A stretch of DNA of 64,000 nucleotides, from contig NZ_JABFHF010000010.1 in NCBI RefSeq assembly GCF_015476655.1, positions 62,001 through 126,000 on the forward strand, given 5' to 3'. Both the position numbers and the translations under genes were made by a program. Under the pieces are notes generated by a model that searched no databases, was not told the origin of the DNA, and saw only the letters and a list, made by a program, of their open reading frames with translations. This document shows, piece by piece, positions 22,306-55,168 of the stretch; within the stretch, counting starts at the first letter, position 1, and each line of letters opens with the position of its first letter. This stretch comes from Aquiflexum lacus. GTDB taxonomy: Bacteria; Bacteroidota; Bacteroidia; Cytophagales; Cyclobacteriaceae.

Positions 22306-23487
22306 TTATGGATTTAAAGTGGGAAAATTCATCATTGTTTCAACTTCTTTGATATTTGGGGTGAGATGGCCAATGACCCTTTTGGTTCTCAGGTATCTGT
22401 TCATTTCATATTCGTCATAATTAGGACTATCTTGGTCAAAGCTACTGATTCTTACCCTGCCACGTGAGTGGATAAAGGAATTGTCGCCGATCCACATCCC
22501 TACATGCACTACCTTTTCTTTTTTGTCTCCGGTTGCTTTTTCACCAAAAAACAACAAATCTCCCACTTCAAGGTTTTCCCAATTTTTATCCTCATCCACT
22601 TCTTCACCTTCCCAAATTTGTTGGGATGCATCCCTTGGGATGACCTGACCATTTAGGAAAAATATGGTTTTGGTAAATCCACTGCAATCAACTCCCTTGA
22701 AGGAGGTACCGCCCCAAAGATAGGGAACTCCCATCATGGCTTTGGCAGTTTGGATCAGGTTTTCAGGACTGAGTTGTCTGCTTTCGTTCCATGATTCAAA
22801 TGGCATCAATTGGTTTTTTTTCACAAAACCAACCCTGCCATCGGGAAGTAGTATTTCCTGATGATTAGTTTCAGTCCACTCAAGGGAAATAATATTCCCT
22901 GCAACCAAATCACTGATGACTTCCTTTTCATCGCTATCTGCATAGGCAAAACCACTGTAATCTGTAAAGACTGCTTTTGGAAGTTGGTTCCATTCTGATA
23001 GTTCTTTCTCATTCATGACATGAATTCCACCCGAATCTACCCAGGAGATATATTGATCCGGCGTTTGTATGAGATACCAAGAGCCTTCTTTTTTCAATAC
23101 TTTAAGCGGAGTGCCCAATAATGCCTGGGTGGCCAGTTCCGCGGAGTGTTTAGGTGCACTTCTGATATTTGCAACTGAAATAGTCACCACTGCAAATTCC
23201 TTTCCCTCTACAGATTGATCAGGCAAAGTTGAAATTTGGTCTTCGTATTTGATATCCAGTTTATCCAATTTTCCTCTGAAGATTTGCAAGGCTTCAGTCT
23301 GATCGGTTTCTCCTGAAAGTATACCATTTGACCATTCTATTTCCCAGATGGCAACCCGCTTGTCAGGGGCATATTCGGATTTGAATTCAGAGATCAATTG
23401 TTCTACTAGCCCACTTTTTTCATCTTGGCAGGAAAGTAAAACAATTCCTAAAGCCAGTGAAAGAAACTTTGAAATGTACTTGGTCAA
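22306..23487 (-). CDS. NlpC/P60 (C40) cell-wall hydrolase lipoprotein with SH3 domains
   Basis: A 393-residue envelope peptidase. No ATG precedes the signal peptide; the best start is TTG at 23487 (reading L/M-TKYISKFLSLALGIVLLSC), giving a lipoprotein with lipobox LLSC. A longer GTG-started frame runs through the upstream terminator and is rejected. Two bacterial SH3-like regions (about 95-235) precede a C-terminal NlpC/P60 domain (about 250-375) with catalytic Cys in GVDCSGFTK and His in HVGMWIG, plus IHSRGRVR. It likely cuts peptide stems of peptidoglycan. YbjQ follows after 3 bases. Confidence 0.88.
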   Translation of the reverse strand: MTKYISKFLSLALGIVLLSCQDEKSGLVEQLISEFKSEYAPDKRVAIWEIEWSNGILSGETDQTEALQIFRGKLDKLDIKYEDQISTLPDQSVEGKEFAVVTISVANIRSAPKHSAELATQALLGTPLKVLKKEGSWYLIQTPDQYISWVDSGGIHVMNEKELSEWNQLPKAVFTDYSGFAYADSDEKEVISDLVAGNIISLEWTETNHQEILLPDGRVGFVKKNQLMPFESWNESRQLSPENLIQTAKAMMGVPYLWGGTSFKGVDCSGFTKTIFFLNGQVIPRDASQQIWEGEEVDEDKNWENLEVGDLLFFGEKATGDKKEKVVHVGMWIGDNSFIHSRGRVRISSFDQDSPNYDEYEMNRYLRTKRVIGHLTPNIKEVETMMNFPTLNP

Positions 23488-23511
23488 GGAATTTTGGTTT
23501 TGAGTTGGTAA

Positions 23512-23542
23512 TAAAAAAACCGTGGTAGCTATTACCACGGTT
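23512..23542 (-). terminator. Rho-independent terminator after the amidohydrolase cluster
   Basis: A perfect 10-bp stem AACCGTGGTA / TACCACGGTT with a 5-base loop, followed on the minus strand by seven T. It begins 11 bases after the stop of the third amidohydrolase gene and separates that operon from the NlpC/P60 gene. Confidence 0.9.
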
Positions 23543-23552
23543 TAAACTTAAA

Positions 23553-24860
23553 TCAGTTTCCATTTTTTTCCAAACCGGGAGATCTTTCCAAGAACTCCTG
23601 ATAGAGTTTGATATGCCTGTTGCTCATGGGGACACGATAGCCATCAATAAACACATGGCTGATCTGTGTTTTGGTTTCAAAAGGATCTCCTGTCGATACA
23701 AACAAGGTAGCATCTTTACCTGTCTCAATTGAGCCTAACCTGTCAGCTACGCCAAATACCTCGGCGGCATTGATGGTTACGGATTTGAGTGCTTCTTCTT
23801 TACCCATTCCGTAAGCTGCGGCGAATCCCGCATTAAAAGGGAGATTTCTGGTATTTTCGGCATCATTGCTTCTGATTACTACTTTTACACCTGCTTTGGC
23901 CATTTTTCCTGGGTTTGTATAGGCTGCATCATATCTGTCAGATTGACGGGTAGGTATAGAAAGCATGGGACCTGCTACTACGGGAAGTTTGGCTTCTGCG
24001 ATTTTATCGGCTACTCTCCAACCTTCGGCGACTCCTGTCAGTATGGCTTTTACATTTTTGGATTGAATCCAGTCAATGGCAGCAACAATATCAGAGGCAG
24101 CATTGACCTCTACCAACAAGGGCAATTCTCCTGCAATCACTTTGGCAAGTTGTTCCATTTCAGGATAAAACTGAAGTTCTGCATTCGCCTCTTTAAGTTG
24201 GTGGTAAGTTATTGCCCTTTCCCAGATTTCATTTAAGGTTTTCTGAGCCTTTTCAGATTCTTTCTTGATATCCTCATCAGATCTTCTATCCCATGTACTT
24301 CTTCTTGCAGAAGAGGGGAAATTCAAAACCACACCTTTGAAACCAGCATACATCTGATCAGGTGTGTAACCATTCAGGTTGATCAAAGCAGCAGTTCCAG
24401 GGAATAAACCACCTGAAGGAACTGCAAGGGTAGTGGTCACCCCGCTCACTCTTGTGACCGGTATTGCTATTGAATTTGGATTGACTGCGACCAATGCCTG
24501 CATATTTGGCGTAACTTGACCAATCTCTGCAAAATCCTGAGTTTCTGGTAAAGAGTTGACTTCAACAAGACCCAATCTGCTTCCACCGTCCATCAAGCCA
24601 GGATAGATAAATTGTCCCGTACAATCAATTACTTCTGCATCTCCTGCCAAAAGGTTTTTGCCAACTGCTTCTATTTTGCCATTGACAATCAGCACACTGC
24701 CATTTTCGATGATGCCATTGGTGACAGTTTGAATGGTGGCATTTTGCAGGAGAAATTTCCCGTTTCTGGGCTTGATGAATTCTCCGTCAAACTGGGCTTT
24801 TGCCATGAATGGAATCATGAGCAGGCAGAATATATAAAGGATGTTTTTTAAATTTTTCAT
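23553..24860 (-). CDS. Exported amidohydrolase-fold protein lacking the HxH metal motif
   Basis: A 435-residue secreted protein (signal peptide to MAKAQ) with the beta-sandwich plus TIM-barrel pattern of the amidohydrolase superfamily: GSVLIVNGKIEAVGKNL, then YPGLMDGGSRLG, and the C-terminal return DRLGSIETGKDATLFV. Where active members have HxH after strand 1, this one has GGS, and later His ligands are not obvious. It is likely inactive as a metal hydrolase or uses another chemistry. It is the last gene of a three-gene cluster, 27 bases after the intact paralogue. Confidence 0.85.
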   Translation of the reverse strand: MKNLKNILYIFCLLMIPFMAKAQFDGEFIKPRNGKFLLQNATIQTVTNGIIENGSVLIVNGKIEAVGKNLLAGDAEVIDCTGQFIYPGLMDGGSRLGLVEVNSLPETQDFAEIGQVTPNMQALVAVNPNSIAIPVTRVSGVTTTLAVPSGGLFPGTAALINLNGYTPDQMYAGFKGVVLNFPSSARRSTWDRRSDEDIKKESEKAQKTLNEIWERAITYHQLKEANAELQFYPEMEQLAKVIAGELPLLVEVNAASDIVAAIDWIQSKNVKAILTGVAEGWRVADKIAEAKLPVVAGPMLSIPTRQSDRYDAAYTNPGKMAKAGVKVVIRSNDAENTRNLPFNAGFAAAYGMGKEEALKSVTINAAEVFGVADRLGSIETGKDATLFVSTGDPFETKTQISHVFIDGYRVPMSNRHIKLYQEFLERSPGLEKNGN

Positions 24861-24887
24861 TTTCTTTTTGATTAAATCCTTGGGAAA

Positions 24888-26270
24888 TTAATGGCCATGT
24901 TCAAATAGATTTCTCCCAAAATTGGTAAAGAAAAAGTCTACACCGTGCATACACTTATGGTCATGTTCTTTGAGGAATATGGGCTCAATGATATCTGTAG
25001 CACTAACCCTAAGTCTCTTGTCATTATCGTCTTCATTGATGTCAAAATATTTTACCCCATCCACAAAGGTCATCTGAGGAATAGCATATACTGAAAGCGG
25101 ATGTCCTTCAAAGATTACAAGATCTGCCTGTTTGCCTTCTTCAATGGAACCGACTTTGTCAGCGATACCCAATTGCTTGGCCGGATTGATCGTGATCAAA
25201 GCCAATGTCTGTTCATCATCCAATTGACCATATCTTTGAGCTTTACCGGCTTCATGATATAAGTGTCTGATCAATTCACCGGAATCAGAATTAATGGAGG
25301 TGATCACACCGTTTTCGGTAAGGATGGCAGCATTGTAGGCCGTTGAATAATATACCTCAAACTTGTAAGCCCACCAATCTGCAAAAACCGAAGCTCCCAT
25401 TGTATAGGCAGCCAATTCCGGCGCAACTTTAAAGCCTTCGTTGACATGGGAAAAAACAATGTTTGTAATTCCAAAATCCCTACAGGTATTGATCAGTGCA
25501 TATATCTCATCCGCCCGGTAAGAGTGACAGTGAATAATGACTTTTCCATCCAGTATATCCACAAGAGTCTGTAGTCTGGTATCATATTTTGGAGGAACAG
25601 GCGTTGCTCCTTTTTGTTTTAAGGCTGCATTGTAGGTATCCCAAGTTTTTTTGTATTGAATGGCTTCATTAAATCCATTCCGGATAACGGCCTCTACACC
25701 CATTCTTGATCTGGGTTGATTACCATTTCCCCTACCATGAACTCTAGTCGGGTTTTCACCCAAGGCAAACTTGATGGTTCTTGGTGCTTCTTTCATGAAT
25801 AGGTCTTCTGGATTTCCTGATCCGTATCGATGTTTCAGGGTAATATTTTGACCTCCAATGGCATTTGCTGAACCATGCATGGCGTGTGAGATGGTAACTC
25901 CCCCGGCCAAAGCTCGGTAAAGTCCGATATCATAGGGATCAACTACATCGGCCATTCTTACCTCAGAGGTGATAGGAGCAGTGGCTTCATTAACCGCATC
26001 CAAGGCGACATGGGAGTGGGCATCAATAATCCCCGGCATCAGGTATTTTCCTTTTGCATCTATGGTTTGCACATTTGCAGCTGTAAGGTTTTTTCCGATA
26101 CTTTTAATGACACCATTTTCTACCAATACATCAGTTTCTTCCAAAGTTCCATTGGTGATGGTCAGCACGGTGGCGTTTTTGATCAGCACAGAGCCTTTTG
26201 GTGTCTGCGCTTTGGCAAACAGAACAGCCAACATCAAAAAGGATATGAGTATATATTTTAATTTTTTCAT
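24888..26270 (-). CDS. Exported metal-dependent amidohydrolase
   Basis: A 460-residue secreted amidohydrolase (signal peptide to FAKAQ). It retains the full metal set: HSH at 85-87 in IIDAHSHVAL, His in VIIHCHSYRAD, His in IVFSHVNEG, and a candidate Asp in INSDSGELI. The N- and C-terminal beta-sandwich halves carry VLVENGVIKSIGKNL and DKVGSIEEGKQADLVIF. It resembles imidazolonepropionase-like or dipeptidase-like members; the substrate is unknown. The His-rich tail (EHDHKCMH and EHGH) is unusual. It lies between two motif-less paralogues, so a complex is plausible. Confidence 0.9.
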   Translation of the reverse strand: MKKLKYILISFLMLAVLFAKAQTPKGSVLIKNATVLTITNGTLEETDVLVENGVIKSIGKNLTAANVQTIDAKGKYLMPGIIDAHSHVALDAVNEATAPITSEVRMADVVDPYDIGLYRALAGGVTISHAMHGSANAIGGQNITLKHRYGSGNPEDLFMKEAPRTIKFALGENPTRVHGRGNGNQPRSRMGVEAVIRNGFNEAIQYKKTWDTYNAALKQKGATPVPPKYDTRLQTLVDILDGKVIIHCHSYRADEIYALINTCRDFGITNIVFSHVNEGFKVAPELAAYTMGASVFADWWAYKFEVYYSTAYNAAILTENGVITSINSDSGELIRHLYHEAGKAQRYGQLDDEQTLALITINPAKQLGIADKVGSIEEGKQADLVIFEGHPLSVYAIPQMTFVDGVKYFDINEDDNDKRLRVSATDIIEPIFLKEHDHKCMHGVDFFFTNFGRNLFEHGH

Positions 26271-26282
26271 CTTATCTATTGA

Positions 26283-27992
26283 TTAACGCGTACTTTGATT
26301 TGGTTTTTTTGTGGCATTTAGGGGGTAACTCCCAAAATCTGCCAAGGACATGTTTCCGGAAAACTGATTGTCATTGATATCACCGGATACGGTTACTTCA
26401 AGGGACATCCCTCCTGCTGCGACATCAAATGTAAAGGTGAGGTAATTGCCGGAGATACTGATGTTATTCATTTCTGAAGTAGCTGTTCCGCTGCCGGCAG
26501 GATTTGCATAGGTGATGGTTCCTTTGTAGGATTCCCCCTCTTTTTTGATTGTCATTATTCCGCCTGAGCTGCCTGCAGGAGTATCTGATGTATATTCCCA
26601 ATCACCGGCAATGTTGGCTGTTCCGTTTTCTCCATTACCATTGCCATTTGCAGCTTTCTTGGTTTTGATTTCATAATCAAATATATAGCCATCAGCTACC
26701 ACATGCCTTACTTGTGCATCTTCACTGAGCATTGGTCCTGTAAAAATGACCATGTTGGCCAGTTTTCCCTTTTCTATTGTTCCTGCAAATTTTGAGATTC
26801 CAAGGATATTTGCAGGATTGATTGTCAAAGCTGCTAATGCCCCATTTTCGCTAAGACCATTTTCCACCATCATTTTGAGGTTTTTCATAAGGTCTGAACT
26901 TTTCCCACCCACTGAGGTGAAACCAAAAGGTATTTCAGCTTTTTCTAATATACCTGCCTGTTTCAAATTATTTTCGTAGGCATCTTGGGCTCTTTTTGTT
27001 CTTGCCTTAATCTCATCGGAAAGATCATCCATTTTTGCTTTGGTGATTTTATCATCAGGCAGTTTCATGCTCATTAAGACCTGTGCATTGGCGGCTTTGA
27101 TTTCATTGACAACCATGTCTGCTTCAGTAACCCCGACCAGAACAAGTCTAAAACCATTTTCTTTTTGTAGCGAAAGTGCTCTCCTTATTTCAAGGTCATT
27201 CGAAACTTCAAACATGATCGGAATCCGCTTATCAATTACAGGGTAAAAAGCCTCAAGGGTTTTATTAACCTCAGGTCTGTTCAGACCACTGTTTGAAGCA
27301 AAAAGCCTTTGATGCTGAGCTGAATATTCTGCATTTTTATACAGGTCTCTGAATTTAGCCATGATACCCAACTGAGTTCCCGGATAGGAACCTCTACCAC
27401 CTCCTACTCCTCTGAATTTGGCGCCTAGGGATGTGTTCTGGGCAAGGATATTGGTTGAGGAATTTCCTCCTAAAACCACGATGGCTGCTTTTCCTGGTAA
27501 CATACCACCATCTGGAATCACTTGGGCAATAGTAAATCCACTTTTTCTCCAATCACTGATCTGATTGTTTTTGAAATCGAAATGATCGAGTACATTCCTC
27601 CAAGGAGTTATACCTGCATTTTCGTCAGGAGGATTTGAGGGGTCAAAATTGGATGGTCTTTCCGGATCAGTGGGTTTTGTAACACCTGCACTGCTAGCGC
27701 CATCTATAAAACCTGGATAAATGAATAAGGAGTCTCCATCTATCACTTGGGCTTCATTCGGAATACGGACATTTGTACCAACAGCCTCAATCAACCCATT
27801 TTTGATCAAAATTGTGGCGCCGGAAACTGTCTTGCCTGGTGCTGTGGTAATGGTAGCATTTTTAATTGCGTAGGTTCCTGTAACTCTTCTTTCCCCTGTG
27901 GGATCACTTTGGGCCCAAAGTGGATTGTAAGAAAGAAAAAAGCAGATAAACAATAAGCTACTGAATACTTTTAACTTGGGGTGCATATTCAT
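26283..27992 (-). CDS. Exported amidohydrolase-fold protein, HxH lost, with extra C-terminal beta domain
   Basis: A 569-residue secreted protein (signal peptide ending LWAQ). The amidohydrolase-like part runs to about residue 445 and has GFIDGASSAG where the metal HxH should be. After a Gly/Asn-rich linker, a separate beta-rich domain of about 105 residues follows (GDWEYTSDTPAGSSGGIMTI through FGSYPLNATKK), which looks like a small barrel or lipocalin-like binding module. First gene of the three-gene cluster; 12 bases separate it from the catalytic paralogue. Confidence 0.85.
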   Translation of the reverse strand: MNMHPKLKVFSSLLFICFFLSYNPLWAQSDPTGERRVTGTYAIKNATITTAPGKTVSGATILIKNGLIEAVGTNVRIPNEAQVIDGDSLFIYPGFIDGASSAGVTKPTDPERPSNFDPSNPPDENAGITPWRNVLDHFDFKNNQISDWRKSGFTIAQVIPDGGMLPGKAAIVVLGGNSSTNILAQNTSLGAKFRGVGGGRGSYPGTQLGIMAKFRDLYKNAEYSAQHQRLFASNSGLNRPEVNKTLEAFYPVIDKRIPIMFEVSNDLEIRRALSLQKENGFRLVLVGVTEADMVVNEIKAANAQVLMSMKLPDDKITKAKMDDLSDEIKARTKRAQDAYENNLKQAGILEKAEIPFGFTSVGGKSSDLMKNLKMMVENGLSENGALAALTINPANILGISKFAGTIEKGKLANMVIFTGPMLSEDAQVRHVVADGYIFDYEIKTKKAANGNGNGENGTANIAGDWEYTSDTPAGSSGGIMTIKKEGESYKGTITYANPAGSGTATSEMNNISISGNYLTFTFDVAAGGMSLEVTVSGDINDNQFSGNMSLADFGSYPLNATKKPNQSTR

Positions 27993-28237: not shown

Positions 28238-28600
28238 ATGAAAAATGTTTTGATTATCGAAGACGATAAACTGATATCTAGTTTGGTACGGTTTAAGTTG
28301 AAAAAAGAAGGCTATAACGTCACGATTACTGAAGATGGAATCGCAGGTATTGATGCTATCAATCTTATGGAAACAGACCTGATTATAACAGATGTTATGA
28401 TTCCTTTCAAAAATGGGATTGAAATCATCAATCATGCCAAGAAGGTTAGCCCAAAAGTCCCCATTATAGTTCTCAGTTCGTTGGGAGAAGAAGAAGGTAC
28501 AGTCATGGAAGCGTTCAATCTTGGCGTGTCTGATTTTGTACCAAAACCTTTCAATCCTAATGAACTTGCTATGCGGGTAAGAAGATTGATCAATAATTGA
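28238..28600 (+). CDS. Stand-alone response regulator receiver (CheY-like)
   Basis: A 120-residue receiver domain only. The acidic pair E8-D9-D10 (IIEDDKLI), the phospho-acceptor Asp in LIITDVMIPF (about residue 52), a Ser-Ser at the Thr position (VLSSLGEEE) and the Lys in VPKPFNP are all present, so phosphorylation is likely. There is no output domain and no histidine kinase nearby. It opens a tight operon with a HEAT-like membrane protein (gap 3), GT2, YaiO and an unknown protein, implying that it acts by protein contact on the polysaccharide machinery. Confidence 0.93.
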   Translation: MKNVLIIEDDKLISSLVRFKLKKEGYNVTITEDGIAGIDAINLMETDLIITDVMIPFKNGIEIINHAKKVSPKVPIIVLSSLGEEEGTVMEAFNLGVSDFVPKPFNPNELAMRVRRLINN

Positions 28601-28603
28601 TAA

Positions 28604-30211
28604 ATGGTAAAAGAAGCTGGACTAAGAAAAATAGAAAAACTGATATTCACCCTTGTTTTTTTACACCTTTTTTTGTCCGGAAATCTTGTAGCACAGGACA
28701 GCAGTATCACTGTTTCTGGTTTGCAATCTGTTTTGGAAAATGTTGATGAAGTTCCTGGTTTGGAGTTTATCGTATATTTCAGAACACCCAATGATACAAC
28801 TGATCTAACTCTTCTGAATTTAAGTCAGCACGCTGACTCTATTAATTTTTGGTTTTCTGATACCATTCTTCTTTACAATGAAGCTAAAGAATTGAATGCT
28901 GATCTGTCCCTCTTGAACAAAGGTTCGGGGTCGATCAATTATTTATTGTTCAAAAGAGAAGTCAGTGAATCCGGTGTAGTGGAATATTTGGATAATCTGA
29001 TGAGGAATGAACTCTTTGATCCAAAAAGCATTGTCGATAATTCTTTTGGCAATGAAGGTGAACTGGTGTTGCTGGGTACCAATACCCCTTTCCGGCCATT
29101 TTATAAATTGAAGGTAAAGATCCTGAGTGATGTCAAGATGCTATTGCTATTGGCTTGTCTGAGCATGTTTCTCATAGCCTCTTTAATTATGGTCTTGGTG
29201 ATGTTTGTTATCAAATCCAAAAAAAGGCGAAAAGAAGTCCTGACACTGAGGTTTAAGAATTTATGCTACGGACCGATATCAGACCTTCTTTTTGACGATG
29301 AGCCGGAGAGGCTGAATCAGTTGAAGAAGGAAGATATGGTTGCACTGTTTCCAAAAGGTCATCTTGATATTGATTTGTTCAAAGATGTGATGATTCAGGA
29401 GATTATCAGTCTCAACAAAAACATGAAAGGGGATTTTAAATCCCGTTTAAAACTTATTTACAGGAAACTGGAATTGGACAGGCATTCCATAAAAAAATTA
29501 TCCTTAAAAAGGTGGGACGCGGTAACAGCCGGGATTGTTGAAATCAACGAAATGGATGTCATTGAGGCAGTACATATAGTAGGAAAATTCACCTCCCACG
29601 AAAACTTTTATATCAGGTCCAATGCTGTTGCTACCATGTTGAACATTTCAAATGATATGTCATTGAAGGTTTTGGCGGATCAACGCTATCCTTTGTCCAA
29701 GTGGCAACAGATGAAATACTACAGAATTATAAAGTACATCAACAACAAGGGAATCCTCAAATTCCATTTACTTTTTGAATCAGAAAATGAATCTGTCAGG
29801 GTTTTTGGGATAAAATTGGTCAGACACCTTGGTTTAGTAGACAAGCTTTCGATACTTCAGCAAATGTATGGGACAGCTTCTATCAATGAGAAAATAGAAA
29901 TTTTGAAATGCTATGACAACTTTAATCATGTCGATGGTTTGGAAGATGTCTATAAAGACCTTAATACTTCTGACAAGGCACTTTTTTTGAATATTGTTAA
30001 AGTATTGAAAAATTTAGGCTCTGAAGTATCCCAAATTATTTTGATGGAATGGTTTAAGAAAACCAAGGATTTTGAATGCCGACTGAAAATATTGGATGCG
30101 GTAAATTCCCTTAATCCTGATTTGATTGCAATACTCGATGAAACAAAGGGTGACGATCAAGTCAAACAGATTTTAGCACACCTTAAAGACCCTATTCTCA
30201 GTCATGTATAG
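28604..30211 (+). CDS. Membrane-anchored protein with cytoplasmic HEAT-like repeats
   Basis: A 535-residue protein: signal peptide (to about 31, ending LVAQ), a periplasmic domain (about 32-175), one membrane helix (about 178-203) followed by KSKKRRKE, then an all-alpha cytoplasmic region (about 215-535). The latter has repeating helix pairs of HEAT/Armadillo character (for example AVHIVGKFTSHENFYIRSNA, SVRVFGIKLVRHLGLVDKL). It fits a transmembrane scaffold coupling the receiver protein to the glycosyltransferase. The 3' end overlaps the GT2 gene by 8 bases. Family name not known to me. Confidence 0.75.
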   Translation: MVKEAGLRKIEKLIFTLVFLHLFLSGNLVAQDSSITVSGLQSVLENVDEVPGLEFIVYFRTPNDTTDLTLLNLSQHADSINFWFSDTILLYNEAKELNADLSLLNKGSGSINYLLFKREVSESGVVEYLDNLMRNELFDPKSIVDNSFGNEGELVLLGTNTPFRPFYKLKVKILSDVKMLLLLACLSMFLIASLIMVLVMFVIKSKKRRKEVLTLRFKNLCYGPISDLLFDDEPERLNQLKKEDMVALFPKGHLDIDLFKDVMIQEIISLNKNMKGDFKSRLKLIYRKLELDRHSIKKLSLKRWDAVTAGIVEINEMDVIEAVHIVGKFTSHENFYIRSNAVATMLNISNDMSLKVLADQRYPLSKWQQMKYYRIIKYINNKGILKFHLLFESENESVRVFGIKLVRHLGLVDKLSILQQMYGTASINEKIEILKCYDNFNHVDGLEDVYKDLNTSDKALFLNIVKVLKNLGSEVSQIILMEWFKKTKDFECRLKILDAVNSLNPDLIAILDETKGDDQVKQILAHLKDPILSHV

Positions 30212-31661
30212 TATTTTATTCAACATATTGATTGAAATAATGGGTATACTCTTTTTGGTGTATAGCTTCGCCATTATTTCCATTTACCTAGTGATGGCGG
30301 CTTTGTCTGCTCTTGAGATGAGAGACCACCTCAGGAAAAATAAATTTGCTGATTATAATGATGTCATCACCAGTCCTATTTCTCCCGGTATTTCCATTAT
30401 AGCGCCAGCCTTTAATGAGGGAAAAAACATCGTTCAGAATGCCAAAAGTCTCTTGACGCTTCATTACAGCAGGTATGAAGTGATTATCGTAAATGATGGC
30501 TCAAAAGATGACAGCTTGGAGCGAATGGTAGAAAGTTTTGATTTGGTAAAAACGGATTACGCTTACAATTATCAGATTGAATGTAAAAATATCAGAGGTG
30601 TATATAAATCTACCAACAGGTCTTTTTCGAAACTAACCTTTGTCGATAAAGAAAATGGCGGGAAAGCAGATGCTTTAAATGCAGGTATCAATGTGGCACA
30701 GAACGAGATTTTGGCCTGTATTGATGTCGATTGTATTCTTTCAAGTGATTCTTTGACTAGAATGGTCCGTCCTTTTATGGAGGAGACCAATAGAAAAGTG
30801 ATTGCTGTGGGTGGAGTCATCGGCGTGGCCAATAACTGTGATGTAAAGGATGGAACAGTTACCAAGTACCGGGTTCCTGATACTTTGCTTGGAAGGTTTC
30901 AGGTGATAGAATATTTCAGGGCTTTCTTGATGGGCAGAATGGCATGGACAAGGATCAATGGTCTGATGTTGATATCAGGAGCATTTGGTTTTTTTAAAAG
31001 AGATTTGGTTTTGAAGGTCGGAGGATATTTTCCCAAGACAGTAGGAGAGGATATGGAACTTGTAGTCAGGATGAGGCGATATATGAATGAAGAAGGAATT
31101 GCACATAAAGTTGGTTTTGTTCCGGATCCCTTGTGCTGGACTGAGGTTCCTGAAACTAAAGGTGTCCTTTCCAAACAAAGAAATAGGTGGATGAGGGGAA
31201 CTATAGAGACCTTACAGCTTCACCAAAATATCAGTATGAATCCCAAACATGGTGTCTTGGGTATGATATCTTACCCTTTCTGGTCAATTTTTGAAAAGTG
31301 GGCACCGATTCTTGAGTTTATGGGGATTATCTATACCATGGTAATGGTCTTCACAGGAGATATAAGTGCATTGTATTTTATAGCGCTATTTGTTCTTATT
31401 TACTGTTTTTCCATTCTGATTTCCTCATTCAGTATTTTGTACGAAGAGGTTGCTTATAATAATTACAAGGATAAAACAGACCTGAAGAAATTGATCAAAA
31501 CTATTATTTTGGAGCCATTTCTGATTCACCCGCGATTGGTTTGGTGGGGATTGAAAGGACATTGGCACTTTATCAAAGGAAAAGGTGGCTGGGGCGAAAT
31601 GATCAGGACAGGCTTCAAAAAAGCCACTGATAAGCAAAAGGTAAGTTCTGTGACCCCATAA
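30204..31661 (+). CDS. Processive family 2 glycosyltransferase (PgaC/BcsA-like)
   Basis: A 485-residue inner-membrane synthase. An N-terminal helix (about 8-33) precedes a GT-A domain with all processive GT2 motifs: D98 in VNDGS, NGGKADALNAG at 151-161, DVDC (D174, D176), GEDMEL (D283) and the QRNRW motif at 325-329. Two or three C-terminal helices (about 354-412) follow. This is the pattern of poly-N-acetylglucosamine synthase PgaC/IcaA and relatives. There is no PilZ domain and no PgaD, so c-di-GMP control is not indicated. Sugar type is inferred only. Confidence 0.9.
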   Translation: MYSILFNILIEIMGILFLVYSFAIISIYLVMAALSALEMRDHLRKNKFADYNDVITSPISPGISIIAPAFNEGKNIVQNAKSLLTLHYSRYEVIIVNDGSKDDSLERMVESFDLVKTDYAYNYQIECKNIRGVYKSTNRSFSKLTFVDKENGGKADALNAGINVAQNEILACIDVDCILSSDSLTRMVRPFMEETNRKVIAVGGVIGVANNCDVKDGTVTKYRVPDTLLGRFQVIEYFRAFLMGRMAWTRINGLMLISGAFGFFKRDLVLKVGGYFPKTVGEDMELVVRMRRYMNEEGIAHKVGFVPDPLCWTEVPETKGVLSKQRNRWMRGTIETLQLHQNISMNPKHGVLGMISYPFWSIFEKWAPILEFMGIIYTMVMVFTGDISALYFIALFVLIYCFSILISSFSILYEEVAYNNYKDKTDLKKLIKTIILEPFLIHPRLVWWGLKGHWHFIKGKGGWGEMIRTGFKKATDKQKVSSVTP

Positions 31662-31673
31662 CGAAACGTGAAG

Positions 31674-32915
31674 ATGAACCGACAGATAATTTTATTTTCC
31701 CTTTTTTTGCTGGTATTTCAGGGGTATTTACCTACATCTTTAATTGCCCAAGAAAGCTTTGATCCAGATGAATTATATTTTGAAGCAAGGAAATTGATTT
31801 TAGACGGAAAAAGAGAAGAAGGAAGAGAAATCCTGAGAAAAGTACTCTCCAAATATCCCGGTTATGCAGATGTGCTGGTTTTGATGGGAAGGTCTTTTAG
31901 TTGGGATGGACAGTATGATTCTGCAGGCAGGTATTATGAAAGGGCCTTGTTGGCAAGTCCTGAATATGAGGATGTATATGTAGCTTACATCGATAATTTA
32001 TTTTGGAGTGGAAATTACGATAAGGCTTCTGAGGTTCTTGATACCGGCTTAGAAAAAATTGGTGCGACCTCTACAGCGCTGAAATACCGAAAGTCAAGAT
32101 TATATTATTATCGAGAGTCTTACAAGGAGGCACTTGAGCTTGCCAATGAGGTTTTTGCCAAAGCTCCAAAAACTGAGGGGATTTTAGGATATATACAAAC
32201 ATTGAGACGACTTACCCGAATCAATGCAGTCGGTACAACCTATGACTATGATTCCTTTGCAGGTTCTATCAGTCCTTGGAACACCTATTCAATTTATGGC
32301 AGGACAAGGACCGATCTGACCGGTTCCCTGATTGCTAGGGTCACCCACTCCCAGCGGTTTGATGATAGAGGTACTCAGTTTGAGTTGGATGCATATCCTT
32401 CTCTGGGTAAAAATTCCTATGGCTATTTCAATGTCGGTTTTTCGGAAGCCTTTTTCTTTCCCAAATTCAGGTTTGGAACCAGTGTGTTTTGGAATTTACC
32501 AAAAGCTTATGAAGTAGAAGCGGGATATAGATATCTTCAATTTTCGGAAGTTACCCATATCATTACCTCTTCTTTTGGGAAATACATCAGCAATTGGTGG
32601 ATCAATCTAAGACTGAATTTCATTCCTGGAACGGAAGGTTCATCGAGTAGCGGCAACCTGCAGGTTAGGTACTATTTCAGTGGTCCTGAGGATTTTTTCA
32701 GTTTACAAGCCTCAACAGGTGTTTCACCGGATGAGGAGAACAGAGACTTTCAATCCCAATTGTTGAATTCTTACAGGATTAGAGCAGGTTACCAACATCT
32801 GTGGACTTCAAGATGGATGGGATTTGGTTTTGTGGGATATTCCAGAGATGAGATTTCCAAAACCAATTTCAGAAATAACCTCAACATTTCAGTAGGTACC
32901 GAATTTAGATTCTGA
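31674..32915 (+). CDS. TPR + YaiO-family outer-membrane beta-barrel
   Basis: A 413-residue exported protein. The ATG at 31674 (MNRQIILFSLF) opens the signal peptide ending LIAQ; a GTG two codons upstream is the alternative. TPR repeats fill about 30-170 (ADVLVLMGRSFSWDGQYDSA, EVLDTGLEKI), and a YaiO-like barrel about 185-413 ends NISVGTEFRF with a terminal Phe. TPR plus barrel is the architecture of polysaccharide exporters such as PgaA, so it likely exports the polymer made by the adjacent GT2. The stop overlaps the next start by one base (TGATG). Confidence 0.88.
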   Translation: MNRQIILFSLFLLVFQGYLPTSLIAQESFDPDELYFEARKLILDGKREEGREILRKVLSKYPGYADVLVLMGRSFSWDGQYDSAGRYYERALLASPEYEDVYVAYIDNLFWSGNYDKASEVLDTGLEKIGATSTALKYRKSRLYYYRESYKEALELANEVFAKAPKTEGILGYIQTLRRLTRINAVGTTYDYDSFAGSISPWNTYSIYGRTRTDLTGSLIARVTHSQRFDDRGTQFELDAYPSLGKNSYGYFNVGFSEAFFFPKFRFGTSVFWNLPKAYEVEAGYRYLQFSEVTHIITSSFGKYISNWWINLRLNFIPGTEGSSSSGNLQVRYYFSGPEDFFSLQASTGVSPDEENRDFQSQLLNSYRIRAGYQHLWTSRWMGFGFVGYSRDEISKTNFRNNLNISVGTEFRF

Positions 32916-34117
32916 TGAAAAAATTCTGGTCAAAATATTTCCCTGCAGAATTAAGGCTTTTGTCTTTTTGGTTTTTTTTGGCGCTATTGTTTTTTGTAGT
33001 GACCCCGATTTTGAGTTTCGGGATCTGGTACCTGACTCCGTCCAGTCCATTTGGGGTATTGTTGGTCAATAAAACTGTTCCCAACCAGGCGTATCAAGAG
33101 CATCAATCGGTTCATTGGCTGCTCAATCACTTTAAATATACCAAGCTGAACGGCGGCTTTTATGATAAATCAAAAGACTATTTCGGATTTTTTCCTGGCA
33201 ATACTTTAGAAGAATCAAGTATCAATGATCTCTCGTCTTTATCATCAAGTGAAATAGATAATCTGCTAAATAAGAATGAATTGATATATTATGCAGATAC
33301 TTATGGGGTGTATGAAAATGACTTCAATGGACCGATATTGGAAAGTCCCTCCAAGAAGATTTATGGAGGAATGGATCAATCTGATATGAAATTGTTGAAA
33401 GCAGCATTTGCAAAAGAAGTTGATATCATTGCCGAGTTCAATACCATTGCAAGTCCAACGGGAAAGGCGGTAAGGATGGAATTTGAAAATCTTGCTGAAA
33501 TTAAGTGGACGGGATGGATTACAAGGTATTTCGATGAATTAGATACCTTGCTGAACAATGATTTACCGAGATGGCTGATTAAAGGATATGTCAATCAACA
33601 TGATGGTGTATGGGGATTGGCTGGTCCGGGAATGGTTTTTGTCCATGAAAACGGTTCCTTGGAAATATTACAGTTTGGAAAGGATTTTTTGAATAATGTC
33701 CCCAATATTATTTCCACTTCCAAAAACCAAAAAAAATACGAGATACCTGAAATTGTTAAATATCCCTATTGGATTGACGTGATTTTGGTAAGCAGGGACT
33801 TTGAAGTCATTTCTTATTATGACTTACTTCCCACTGAAGAAGGTTTAGATAAACTTAGGGAAATGGGTGTGCCCAGGTATTTTCCAGCAGCTGTAGTCAA
33901 AGAAAATGGTCAGGGTAAGTTTTACTATTTCTGTGGAGATTTTGCAGACAATCCAGTCAGCGGAAGTTCTTATAAGTTTTTTGGAATTTCTAAGTTATGG
34001 AGAATGTTTTTACAAGCTGAAGATTATTCCCAGCGAAACAGTTTTTTTTGGAATTATTATTATCCTTTGATGAAAAACATCTTGAAGGATTCCGAAGCCA
34101 GGCAAAAGCATGATTGA
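32915..34117 (+). CDS. Unrecognised membrane-anchored periplasmic protein of the GT2 operon
   Basis: A 400-residue protein with one N-terminal membrane helix (about 16-40) and a large extracytoplasmic region. Segments such as SVHWLLNHFKYTKL, LIYYADTYGVY, KIYGGMDQSDMKLL and the motif VWGLAGPGMVFVHENG resemble an alternating alpha/beta (flavodoxin or class I glutamine-amidotransferase-like) fold, but no catalytic triad is clear. It is translationally coupled to the YaiO gene (TGATG), so it probably modifies, senses or guides the polymer in the periplasm. No family assigned. Confidence 0.72.
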   Translation: MKKFWSKYFPAELRLLSFWFFLALLFFVVTPILSFGIWYLTPSSPFGVLLVNKTVPNQAYQEHQSVHWLLNHFKYTKLNGGFYDKSKDYFGFFPGNTLEESSINDLSSLSSSEIDNLLNKNELIYYADTYGVYENDFNGPILESPSKKIYGGMDQSDMKLLKAAFAKEVDIIAEFNTIASPTGKAVRMEFENLAEIKWTGWITRYFDELDTLLNNDLPRWLIKGYVNQHDGVWGLAGPGMVFVHENGSLEILQFGKDFLNNVPNIISTSKNQKKYEIPEIVKYPYWIDVILVSRDFEVISYYDLLPTEEGLDKLREMGVPRYFPAAVVKENGQGKFYYFCGDFADNPVSGSSYKFFGISKLWRMFLQAEDYSQRNSFFWNYYYPLMKNILKDSEARQKHD

Positions 34118-34122
34118 ATAAA

Positions 34123-36150
34123 TTATTTCAATGGCAAGTAAACTTTTAAGGAATCAGGAACAATACGGTTGTTTTCAGTGGCATATCTGTTTGAGTTCCG
34201 GTAATTTTCAAACTCCCGAGCCAGTTTTTCCTTCAGTTTGATGTCTGTAATCGGTTCCATGTCCATGTTGTCATAAATCCTGTAAAGTTGGTTGTCAGAT
34301 AGGACATATTCATTGCTGAGGTAATCAAGGAGTTGGTTTTTATTTCGCATCAAAGGATTAGTGACATTTGACTGAAATACAGCAGAGGTATCCATTACAT
34401 AACCTTTCCAGGCTGTCAATGATGGCAAATCCAATTCATAATTGCTTTCCAGAAATCCTAATAGGGTAGGGGCGATTTCAAAATGGGTGGTGATTCCATG
34501 CATTCTTTTTGGTCTCTGTAGTTTCTCAGAAAAGATCATAATAGGGACATGAAACCTGTCCATAGTAGTTGCAAGCGGGATTTCCGGTAGTCTATGGTCA
34601 CCCGTTATAATGAATATGGTGTTTTCATATTTAGGCATGTATTTATAAGCATCAAAAAACTCTTTGATAGCTTCATCCACATAAAGAATACTGGCATACA
34701 TGCTTTGGTAATTCCTATAATTGTTTGCCTGCACAGGATTGGCACGCAAGGTATTGGTGATATAGGTTTCAAAAAGATCGAAATATTTTTGTTCATCCGG
34801 AATTAAAAATGGGTCATGAGATGTTTGAGTCTGAAAAACAGACAGTTGTGGTTGGCTGAGTTCCCTTGGGATTTTTCTCATGCCGTTTTCAAACATGGCT
34901 TTGTCAGGGTAACCCCAGGAAAACCCTGATTTTGATGGAGTTTCTTCAAAATCTGCATCAAAGGAAGACATATCCAGAATTCTATCCACCTTTTGGTATT
35001 CCAAAAACGATCCAACGTTGTCAAAATTTTTATCTGCGCCGATATGGTAATTGGTGAAATAGCCGTTTTTTTTCAAAATGGAGAATAAGGATAAATGAAG
35101 AGGAAATTCAGGTGCTTGTTCCATAAAGCCATTTTGCGCAAATGGAAGAGAACCAAAGATTCCTGTGAGCACACCAAAAGTTCTTCCGGTAGTAGACAAT
35201 CCATTTTTCCAGTACAGTGAATGATTGCTGAGTGAATCCAAAAATGGCGTAAAACTTCCTAAGTAGGCAGCTTCACCTGAATAGGCTTTTCCTAAGCCCT
35301 CGACAATGATAAATACCAAGTCTGGTATCGTGTCAAATTCGGAGAAATATGGGCTTAAAACATCCGGATAATTGTTCTCGTGAAGGAATGGATAATTTGG
35401 TTCTGTAAAAACTTTTTCTACTAATGAATTTGCTTTGGTAGGAGGGGACAAATAAAAGTCAAAAAACAAATATTCTCTATTGGTGAAGTAATTGAATGAC
35501 TGATCGTAAAAATATTGGGATTTATTGACCATCAAGTTTTTTTCTATTTCGCCCAAATCCTGTGTTTTTGCCAAAGGCAAATAGTTCGAAGTTAAAATAA
35601 ATCCATAGCAAATTATTGTAAAAGACACTGCTGCATGGTAATTCATGGGTAACCATTTGCCAATGCTGATGACTCCATAAATCAGTCCAAAAGCAAATAC
35701 CGCGGCACTAAGGTTTAACAAGTTGAATTCTCCCGAGGCTTTGACCGTCGCTATGACATCACTCACCGAATAGGCATAAAGATCTTCACCTAAAGGCAAA
35801 AGCATTTTTGTAAAATAAAAAATTAGACCTGCCTGAAGCAGAATTAAAATTGTGGCTGAGGACTTAACTATTATTTTCCCAAATTTTGGGAAGGTCAGTT
35901 CCAATACCAAGTAGATGATCAATAAAAAACCCAATACATAAAACCCCCACAAAAGGTCATGGACAAATCCCGACAATAGAATAGATTTCTTTTCGAAAGC
36001 CAAATTATGGATACCAAAAACAACCTTTGTCTCAAAAATTCTGAACAACAGAAAGACCAATAAAAAAGGTATTCCGATTTTCCAGAAATTGACAAAAGAA
36101 ATTTTGAGATTGGATATTAAATTAGAGCTAATTTGTGTTTGGGTAGTCAT
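34123..36150 (-). CDS. Sulfatase-fold membrane transferase (LTA synthase / phosphoglycerol transferase-like)
   Basis: A 675-residue protein with five N-terminal membrane helices (to about 190) and a periplasmic alkaline-phosphatase-superfamily domain (about 275-600). I use the ATG at 36150 (MTTQTQISSN); a TTG frame to 36183 is longer. Metal and nucleophile motifs are visible: Glu in FIIVEGLGKAY, Thr in STTGRTFGVLTGIFGSLP, TQTSHDPF and ITGDHRLPE. Such enzymes attach phosphoglycerol or phosphoethanolamine to glycans or lipids. It converges on the GT2 operon, ending 6 bases from it, which hints at decoration of the same envelope polymer. Confidence 0.85.
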   Translation of the reverse strand: MTTQTQISSNLISNLKISFVNFWKIGIPFLLVFLLFRIFETKVVFGIHNLAFEKKSILLSGFVHDLLWGFYVLGFLLIIYLVLELTFPKFGKIIVKSSATILILLQAGLIFYFTKMLLPLGEDLYAYSVSDVIATVKASGEFNLLNLSAAVFAFGLIYGVISIGKWLPMNYHAAVSFTIICYGFILTSNYLPLAKTQDLGEIEKNLMVNKSQYFYDQSFNYFTNREYLFFDFYLSPPTKANSLVEKVFTEPNYPFLHENNYPDVLSPYFSEFDTIPDLVFIIVEGLGKAYSGEAAYLGSFTPFLDSLSNHSLYWKNGLSTTGRTFGVLTGIFGSLPFAQNGFMEQAPEFPLHLSLFSILKKNGYFTNYHIGADKNFDNVGSFLEYQKVDRILDMSSFDADFEETPSKSGFSWGYPDKAMFENGMRKIPRELSQPQLSVFQTQTSHDPFLIPDEQKYFDLFETYITNTLRANPVQANNYRNYQSMYASILYVDEAIKEFFDAYKYMPKYENTIFIITGDHRLPEIPLATTMDRFHVPIMIFSEKLQRPKRMHGITTHFEIAPTLLGFLESNYELDLPSLTAWKGYVMDTSAVFQSNVTNPLMRNKNQLLDYLSNEYVLSDNQLYRIYDNMDMEPITDIKLKEKLAREFENYRNSNRYATENNRIVPDSLKVYLPLK

Positions 36151-36234
36151 TGGGTGAAAACATATAAATAACTCAAGTAACAATACAAACGATTTTTTTT
36201 TAAAATTCCTATCTTGCGGGATTATTAGAAATAT

Positions 36235-52973: not shown

Positions 52974-53348
52974 TTAAATAATGCTTTTGATTTTTTCCGG
53001 AGTTAATGGCTTCTCAATAAAACCTTCCACACAACCAAATTCTTTTGCTTTTTGCCTATCCTGAAAATCAATTGAGCTTGATAAAACAACAATTTTGTCT
53101 TTCCTGTCTTTAAACTCGATTAAGTATTGGTTCAAAAAATCCCAGCCATTCATAACAGGCATATTGATATCTAAAAAAATTAATATGTTTTGATCTGAAC
53201 TTAATGTGCGGATTTTCTCAATTGCTCTTTCTGCTTCAAGATACTCTTCTATTTTAGGAGCGATACCCAATTTTGATACCAACCTTTTATTGATAAGGTT
53301 ATTGATTGGATCATCATCTACTAAAATAATTGAATAAAATGAGCTCAT
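52974..53348 (-). CDS. Response regulator receiver coupled to corA
   Basis: A 124-residue receiver domain. I use the ATG at 53348 (MSSFYSIILVDDDP); a GTG frame from 53411 adds a non-conserved extension. The acidic DDD, phospho-Asp in IFLDINMPVMNG, Ser-Ser-Ser in VVLSSSIDF and the Lys in FIEKPLTP are present. It has no output domain. The next gene, corA, starts one base after its stop, so they are co-transcribed. Receivers of this kind usually signal through protein contact. Confidence 0.88.
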   Translation of the reverse strand: MSSFYSIILVDDDPINNLINKRLVSKLGIAPKIEEYLEAERAIEKIRTLSSDQNILIFLDINMPVMNGWDFLNQYLIEFKDRKDKIVVLSSSIDFQDRQKAKEFGCVEGFIEKPLTPEKIKSII

Positions 53349-53480
53349 AAAAGATTGATATTGACTTTTCAAAAGCACCTGATGCTTGAGAAGAATTTCA
53401 AATATACTCACTCTAAGTTAAAACTTACTTTCAATTAAAAAAATCAGAATCAAGTATTCCTCGTAAGGGTTAGTTGAAAA

Positions 53481-53512
53481 AAAAAGAGGAACCTTTAAGG
53501 TCCCTCTTTTTT
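53481..53512 (-). terminator. Rho-independent terminator after groEL
   Basis: A 13-base stem AAAAAGAGGAACC / GGTCCCTCTTTTT with one mismatch and a 5-base loop, flanked by A on one side and T on the other so that it works in both directions. It lies 16 bases after the groEL stop codon. Confidence 0.85.
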
Positions 53513-53527
53513 GGGTTATTTTTAAGA

Positions 53528-55168
<1,641 letters not shown>

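Follow-up and report, generated by a model that had tools for sequence, protein, structure and literature searches.

How might a processive polysaccharide synthase be controlled in bacteria without GGDEF cyclases? A passage of PMC12802240 describes the post-translational control of synthase-dependent pathways as well characterised and frequently dependent on cyclic di-GMP (c-di-GMP). The question is raised by a locus of Aquiflexum lacus, which lies in a 64,000-nucleotide stretch of contig NZ_JABFHF010000010.1 (positions 62,001 to 126,000, here called the window) and which would offer a concrete answer. Five plus-strand genes at 28238–34117 encode, in order, a receiver-only response regulator, a membrane-anchored HEAT-repeat protein, a processive family 2 glycosyltransferase (GT2), an outer-membrane beta barrel of the YaiO type with TPR repeats, and a membrane-anchored protein to which we refer as gene 5. 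A sixth gene, convergent with gene 5, encodes a membrane phosphotransferase. With somewhat more confidence than doubt, we read the locus as a synthase-dependent polysaccharide machine in which the GT2 is gated by the phosphorylated single-domain receiver, through the obligate HEAT membrane adaptor; most of the bacteria concerned have no GGDEF cyclase. A wider proposal, to which we give an even chance, is that the locus represents a phylum-wide class of c-di-GMP-free machines, where a receiver at the end of a His-Asp phosphorelay gates the GT2 via HEAT and a synthesis-decoration-export cassette, exchanged between strains, is inserted directly behind the receiver gene at its 3' end, so that different phosphate-decorated polymers would come under one unchanged switch.

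HEAT-GT2 pairing and gene order

Two sets of genomes were surveyed, 245 from the family of the host and 296 from the phylum. Strong HEAT matches were present in 31 of the 245 family genomes, rising to 72 when weaker ones (E up to 0.001) were included, and at all 77 HEAT places in these 72 genomes a GT2 gene lay less than 600 bp away on the same strand. Starting from the synthase instead, 80 GT2 places were found independently in the family genomes (E up to 1e-20); a HEAT gene stood beside 77 of them by direct search, and at the remaining three it was recovered by the family model, with 173, 80 and 198 bits. Across the phylum, HEAT matches of at least 75 bits occurred in 40 of the 296 genomes, a count that we prefer to the tally of 86 genomes at E 1e-6, which takes in many unrelated HEAT proteins. 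Loci with wide flanks came from 34 of these 40 genomes and from the window, the 46 genomes with weaker matches being left out.

The 73 HEAT loci compared across the phylum (window included) were picked by similarity to HEAT or to gene 5 and not by GT2; some of them are close relatives, so their counts are not independent events. A GT2 gene was found within 130 bp of HEAT in all 73. Judged by gene neighbourhood, HEAT and GT2 are an obligate pair and the real core of the system. A small receiver lay within 8 kb in 65 loci, or 66 with L062, where the receiver had been dropped by the open reading frame (ORF) filter, and 49 loci had it no more than 150 bp from HEAT. On these positions we regard the link between the receiver and HEAT genes as real and phylum-wide. 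The barrel was present in 63 loci, the phosphotransferase in 35 (within 8 kb) and gene 5 in 15. Several architectures were found: RR-HEAT-GT2-YaiO-gene5, RR-HEAT-GT2-YaiO-RR2, RR-HEAT-GT2-(phosphotransferase+TPR)-YaiO, RR-YaiO-HEAT-GT2, and HEAT-GT2 fused to the phosphotransferase.

A sequence-only reading of the window had described the five genes as overlapping or nearly so, with gaps of 3, -8, 12 and -1. The ORFs confirm this, the third value being that for a start of the barrel gene at ATG 31674. The complete five-gene order was found in the window, at nine of the 11 named gene-5 loci and at L165; of the two exceptions among the 11, L070 begins inside the barrel gene and L071 is differently arranged. 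In 30 of the 245 family genomes (host included), the spacing of HEAT, GT2 and gene 5 is the same, in keeping with the earlier view that a chance association is unlikely. Gene 5 occurs in 10 of the 84 genera of the family (30 genomes), and its distance from GT2 is 1.25–1.38 kb in 30 of 30, space enough for a barrel gene. The named carriers are Aquiflexum, Arthrospiribacter, Mongoliibacter, Belliella, Algoriphagus and one uncultured Bacteroidetes; Belliella and Arthrospiribacter belong to the Cyclobacteriaceae, phylum Bacteroidota. More distant copies of gene 5 stand beside the same kind of module at L071, L131, L134, L145 and L152. As for conservation of the proposed gene order, the exact five-gene form was met within one family only, but the HEAT-GT2 pair, usually with a receiver, is widely conserved.

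In a comparison with a same-genus genome, the ratio of nonsynonymous to synonymous substitution rates (dN/dS, NG86) was 0.03 for the receiver, 0.14 for HEAT, 0.02 for GT2, 0.05 for the barrel, 0.08 for gene 5 and 0.09 for the phosphotransferase, values that are partly saturated because dS reaches 0.6–1.6. All five genes and the phosphotransferase gene are under purifying selection.

Some loci showed further variation. At L078 (543–11930), two receiver-HEAT-GT2-barrel modules stand head to tail at the same site, and the receiver of the second is RR2-like. A DUF4838 protein of about 740 residues is encoded between the barrel and the second receiver at L129 (15951–18185) and L078 (922–3150), with Pfam scores of 313.7 and 278.7 bits; it may be a polymer-processing enzyme. 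ORFs of similar size occur in L087, L132 and L150, the DUF4838 scan having covered the L129 and L078 copies only. At L163 (G099:C26), an in-frame stop splits the GT2 gene beside a weakly scoring HEAT gene, and this module is possibly decaying.

The phosphotransferase and the exchange site

Does the system end with gene 5? The sequence-only reading had closed the unit at 34117 and overlooked the convergent gene at 34123–36183 (minus strand), which encodes an LtaS/OpgB-like membrane transferase of the alkaline phosphatase superfamily (PF00884, 114.6 bits). Its start codon is TTG, with an in-frame ATG near 36150. All 30 genomes with gene 5 also have an orthologue of the phosphotransferase, in 29 of them within 1.6 kb of gene 5 and on the opposite strand and in one (G266) at 48 kb, and 14 of the 15 HEAT loci with gene 5 have the phosphotransferase too. 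It is fused to the C-terminus of GT2 in nine proteins of 1134–1270 residues and, in proteins about 800 residues long, to TPR repeats; four fusions, with GT2 or TPR, were confirmed with Pfam. Of 35 phosphotransferases, 31 have every residue of the consensus catalytic set (E, T, D, H, D, H, H), and one has Ser for the Thr, which we take by analogy to be the nucleophile, the metal ligands being assigned in the same way. Because of the linkage to gene 5, the fusions and the catalytic set, we propose, on the model of BcsG, that the phosphotransferase decorates the polymer, its substrate being a guess. On this comparative evidence the system extends past 34117 and includes the convergent gene.

At G266 (L165/L166), where the module and the phosphotransferase are 48 kb apart, the latter still adjoins a 180-residue ORF that matches the usual flank gene in size, and a rearrangement may have split the site. 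A type I sulfatase was also considered for 34123–36183; enzymes of this kind carry a CxPxR-type motif, and no such site was found.

The family scores of the phosphotransferase bear on the nature of the product. In NCBIfam it reaches 36.8 bits for LtaS (NF053595, cut-off 970) and 29 and 25.8 bits for phosphoglycerol transferases, all far below the equivalog cut-offs; the only PDB matches at E 0.001 were VP1736 and LtaS2, and the phosphotransferase model gave no match to E. coli BcsG. This likeness to LtaS and OpgB would suit an envelope phospho-polymer or glycolipid of a teichoic or osmoregulated periplasmic glucan (OPG) type, in which the backbone would be the work of the phosphotransferase and the GT2 would decorate it. 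We consider such a product improbable, since the GT2 occurs without a phosphotransferase within 8 kb in 38 of the 73 loci, carries the processive QxxRW signature and is accompanied by a TPR/barrel protein in 63.

Further evidence on the extent of the system comes from the replacement of one module by another. Modules of the window type (type I) and of the RR2 type (type II) sit at one and the same chromosomal site, flanked by amidohydrolase genes on one side and a methyltransferase/methionine-sulfoxide-reductase group on the other. Between nine type I loci (a set that leaves out L062) and seven type II loci, the identity is 68% (51–77) for the receiver, 20% for HEAT, 42% for GT2 and 26% for the barrel. 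In a quick GT2 tree, for which fused GT2s were cut to about the first 560 residues (L134: residues 31–590), the main split separates type I from type II, and the grouping of both in one clade is rejected (log-likelihood difference, delta lnL, 196; p 8e-58). In the receiver tree the types intermix: a clade of type I only is rejected and the type must have changed four times or more, though the p of 0.023 is modest, the tree rests on 125 columns with several very long branches, and L078_7052, from the tandem locus, is out of the type counts.

The DNA breakpoint between two related genomes is stronger evidence for exchange than the receiver tree. Belliella alkalica (L065, type I) and a second genome from its genus group (L169, type II), a grouping that rests on equating L065 with genome G253 by matching places, are 87.0% identical over 3.7 kb in the left flank, ending 18 bp before the receiver stop, and 85.0% identical over 3.8 kb in the right flank, starting 115 bp past the phosphotransferase; across the 7.65 kb between the flanks they show no detectable DNA similarity. 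Of 100 pairings of a type I with a type II locus, no more than 10 offered a flank block with an identity over 73%. In nine of these pairs the left block stops no more than 36 bp from the receiver stop codon. The right block begins no more than 120 bp from the phosphotransferase in three pairs and 0.8–1.5 kb later in six, and in one pair none was found; stretches of similarity of 112–258 bp occur inside the segment in six of the 10. These patterns argue that HEAT, GT2, barrel, gene 5 and phosphotransferase were exchanged as one block behind a conserved receiver, the 3' end of the receiver gene being the left border of the exchangeable cassette. A block that includes the phosphotransferase is good evidence that this gene belongs to the system. 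Such a site would keep the regulator and change the machine, a logic comparable to capsule-locus switching. Left of the exchange site, the window has three amidohydrolase-family genes and an NlpC/P60 protein gene (22306–27992, minus strand).

Could the genes simply be neighbours that have no joint function? The opposite strand of the phosphotransferase and its distance of 48 kb in G266 would fit this, but the reciprocal linkage over the phylum, the gene fusions and the one-block cassette exchange leave it scarcely credible.

The receiver, the HEAT protein and c-di-GMP

The gene at 28238–28600 (plus strand) encodes a single-domain response regulator of 120 residues with a Response_reg match of 84.6 bits (Pfam cut-off 30.2), a receiver and nothing else, as had been read from the sequence. 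With the window's receiver included, the phospho-acceptor D52 is kept in 72 of 75 receivers and K103 in all 75. A large receiver-containing ORF is present at 26 of 72 loci, usually near the small receiver (at L068 it is more than 11 kb off). All nine of the large ORFs that were scanned are hybrid histidine kinases, six of them with an Hpt domain. By their domains, the hybrid kinases, Hpt and receiver would be parts of a phosphorelay. The L146 receiver at 5875 has Glu at the phospho-acceptor position and is possibly locked on.

Three bases downstream, the gene at 28604–30211 (plus strand) encodes the membrane-anchored HEAT-repeat protein of 535 residues. Its HEAT_2 match in Pfam (20 bits) is below the cut-off of 27.7, yet the predicted helical solenoid resembles HEAT/ARM proteins, so that the HEAT-like repeats proposed from the sequence find support in the structural model. 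The AlphaFold2 model (predicted local distance difference test, pLDDT, 85.8; predicted template modelling score, pTM, 0.63) has an N-terminal hydrophobic helix (signal or transmembrane), a small periplasmic alpha/beta domain, a helix at 177–231, the first part of which we read as transmembrane, and a cytoplasmic solenoid at about 234–535. The top Foldseek matches were the PP2A scaffold, designed ARM and alphaRep solenoids, with a best E of 1.9e-4 and low whole-chain TM-scores. The start of the solenoid, near the membrane, is the best-conserved stretch of HEAT across the types, with G276 and L291 invariant in 28 sequences, and is a candidate docking site. A search against PHROGs gave one chance-level match. 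The strand-helix order of the periplasmic domain had suggested a SPOR-like origin, which neither Pfam nor a profile search of the PDB (best E 0.42) bore out.

In the control that we propose, a histidine kinase, represented in some relatives by the hybrid kinase with Hpt near the receiver, would phosphorylate the receiver, and the phosphorylated receiver would dock on the cytoplasmic HEAT solenoid and turn the GT2 on or off. The nearest precedent for a receiver driving a synthase in this way, through HEAT as we infer, is EpsW-EpsZ of Myxococcus xanthus, for which a passage of PMC12802240 describes a phosphorylated single-domain receiver that contacts the committed enzyme and activates polysaccharide synthesis. 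The receiver-only protein of 120 residues with phospho-acceptor D52 is like EpsW. EpsZ, in contrast, is a phosphoglycosyl transferase of a Wzx/Wzy pathway, whereas here a synthase-dependent GT2 would be reached through a HEAT adaptor placed between.

What argues for a switch other than c-di-GMP? No GGDEF match was found in the host genome, and only one of the 72 module-bearing genomes had one above the cut-off, with a below-cut-off match in a second; c-di-GMP control is unlikely for these reasons. The control search was positive in 8 of 14 reference genomes. Among 29 relatives, GGDEF was present in two, neither of which had a HEAT match. The earlier statement that PgaB, PgaD and any c-di-GMP domain are absent from the locus stands, in that the Pfam and NCBIfam scans of the six locus proteins listed no match to PgaB, PgaD, a deacetylase, PilZ or an MshEN-type domain.

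Several observations weigh against a receiver-gated, phosphate-decorating machine. The window type has no adjacent kinase, and seven of the 73 loci have no small receiver within 8 kb. The absence of GGDEF leaves room for other messengers. The receiver-HEAT and HEAT-GT2 contacts are ones that we infer, and the sugar and its decoration are guesses. The phosphotransferase is missing within 8 kb from the 38 loci mentioned above, one gene-5 locus, L071, has none in its 17 kb, and three TPR-fused copies (L125, L127 and L155) have lost several catalytic residues, which suggests a non-enzymatic descendant. Finally, the receiver is about 68% identical between types whose HEAT proteins share 20%, so it would either serve very different HEATs or act elsewhere. 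This last point also speaks for a different role of HEAT, as a structural subunit for assembly or stability of the synthase, while the receiver would control something else, such as placement at the cell pole or transcription via another protein. The HEAT-GT2 pairing, within 130 bp at every locus, is stricter than the receiver linkage, as this alternative would have it. However, 49 of the 73 loci have a small receiver no more than 150 bp from HEAT, and this receiver is phospho-competent and often near a hybrid kinase; we take the structural role to be unlikely, though the most serious competitor to gating by the receiver.

Synthesis, export and related systems

The synthase gene (30204–31661, plus strand) overlaps HEAT by 8 nucleotides and encodes a protein of 485 residues that scores above cut-off for GT2 families. 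The motifs on which the processive GT2 had been recognised are intact and identical in all 73 GT2s (the window's included): D98, DxD at 174/176, ED at 282/283 and QxxRW at 325–329. The nearest named family is PgaC/IcaA (TIGR03937), at 141.6 bits against a cut-off of 422.3. Among a control set of 17 E. coli proteins, the GT2 model matched PgaC best (111 bits), then YaiP (53) and BcsA (27), and did not match NfrB; the HEAT, receiver, gene-5 and phosphotransferase models matched none of the 17.

The barrel gene (31668–32915, plus strand; start at GTG 31668 or ATG 31674) encodes the TPR and YaiO-type barrel protein, the proposed export pore. Membership in the YaiO family, as called from the sequence, is borne out by PF19413 (206 bits) and TIGR04390 (183.4 bits), both far above their cut-offs. 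The barrel model matched E. coli BcsC, NfrA and PgaA, probably through TPR; it missed E. coli YaiO and is for this reason no test of barrel kinship. With a motif-complete membrane GT2 and a TPR/barrel exporter, the locus has the sequence-level features of synthase-dependent polysaccharide secretion, and the earlier reading of these two proteins as synthase and exporter is supported.

Is this then a degenerate or rearranged form of the poly-N-acetylglucosamine (Pga/Ica) system? No named family scores higher than PgaC/IcaA, no E. coli protein of the control set scores higher than PgaC, and a TPR-barrel exporter is common to both systems. However, the GT2 is far below the family cut-off, PgaB, PgaD and deacetylase matches are lacking among the six proteins, the control would be another, and the genome has no GGDEF; we hold a Pga/Ica derivative to be very unlikely.

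Gene 5 (32915–34117, plus strand; overlap of 1 with the barrel gene) encodes a protein of 400 residues that the sequence-only reading had called an unknown periplasmic protein. This remains true by sequence, as searches of Pfam, NCBIfam, PHROGs and PDB gave nothing useful, but the predicted fold is recognisable: structure prediction, as had been suggested, points to a membrane-anchored periplasmic protein with a GATase1/ThuA-like domain. The AlphaFold2 model, built from 27 sequences, has a pLDDT of 91.1 and a pTM of 0.89, with one N-terminal membrane helix followed by a Rossmann-like domain. The best Foldseek E was 1.2e-4, with TM-scores of at most 0.54 among the matches listed. VIA comparisons gave STM3548 (Z 14.5, 3.0 Å over 208 residues, 14% identity), the GH42 enzyme 5xb7 (Z 14.4, 3.1 Å over 196) and the deacetylase Agd3 (Z 13.1, 4.0 Å over 206). 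The predicted fold may be akin to those of GATase1/ThuA-like proteins, GH42 domain B and Agd3, but gene 5 differs from them in its membrane anchor, in having no invariant Cys or His, and in an identity of 6–14% among the matches listed. Among the 27 aligned sequences, no Cys is invariant or nearly so, which leaves out the catalytic Cys of GATase1, and no His is invariant; amidotransferase chemistry is therefore unlikely. Most of the invariant positions hold aromatic residues, Gly, Pro or polar residues; contact with the glycan would be a plausible role. We propose that gene 5 is a glycan-handling or docking factor.

Downstream of the proposed switch, the GT2 would make and extrude the chain, perhaps of an amino sugar, and the phosphotransferase would add a phospho-alcohol (glycerol-phosphate or phosphoethanolamine) from phospholipid to the periplasmic chain, as BcsG does on cellulose. 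Gene 5 would bind the glycan or hand it over, and the TPR-barrel protein would export the polymer. Sequence comparison establishes the six genes with their domains, the linkage among them, the cassette exchange and the lack of GGDEF; the signalling and the chemistry are proposals. A phosphate-decorated polymer, if this is the product, and the GT2-phosphotransferase fusion would be additions to polysaccharide chemistry.

Two other known systems are similar in part. The Nfr system of E. coli (NfrB-NfrA-YbcH), as portrayed in a part of PMC8669469, likewise combines in one operon a GT2, a TPR and outer-membrane barrel protein and a membrane-anchored periplasmic auxiliary protein. In the same account Nfr is under c-di-GMP control, whereas here HEAT and a receiver are present, no MshEN or PilZ match is listed and the genome has no GGDEF; NfrB and YbcH were also unmatched by our GT2 and gene-5 models. 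In type II cellulose secretion of E. coli, a section of PMC11470070 presents BcsG as a membrane phosphoethanolamine transferase that acts with a GT2 synthase on the nascent chain. The transferase of the window, unlike BcsG, is nearer to LtaS/OpgB and can be fused to GT2 itself, and its model misses BcsG. By the features compared, the system differs from Pga, Nfr and Bcs and would share with them the general kind of synthase-dependent polysaccharide secretion. No named system of the same composition had been known to the sequence-only reading, and a full-text literature search, with most subscription papers outside its reach, likewise found no description of one.

Elsewhere in the window (52974–55156, minus strand), a receiver protein of 145 residues is encoded directly beside a TCP-1/cpn60 chaperonin gene. 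In Myxococcus, a passage of PMC9040617 places an orphan response regulator upstream of groEL2.

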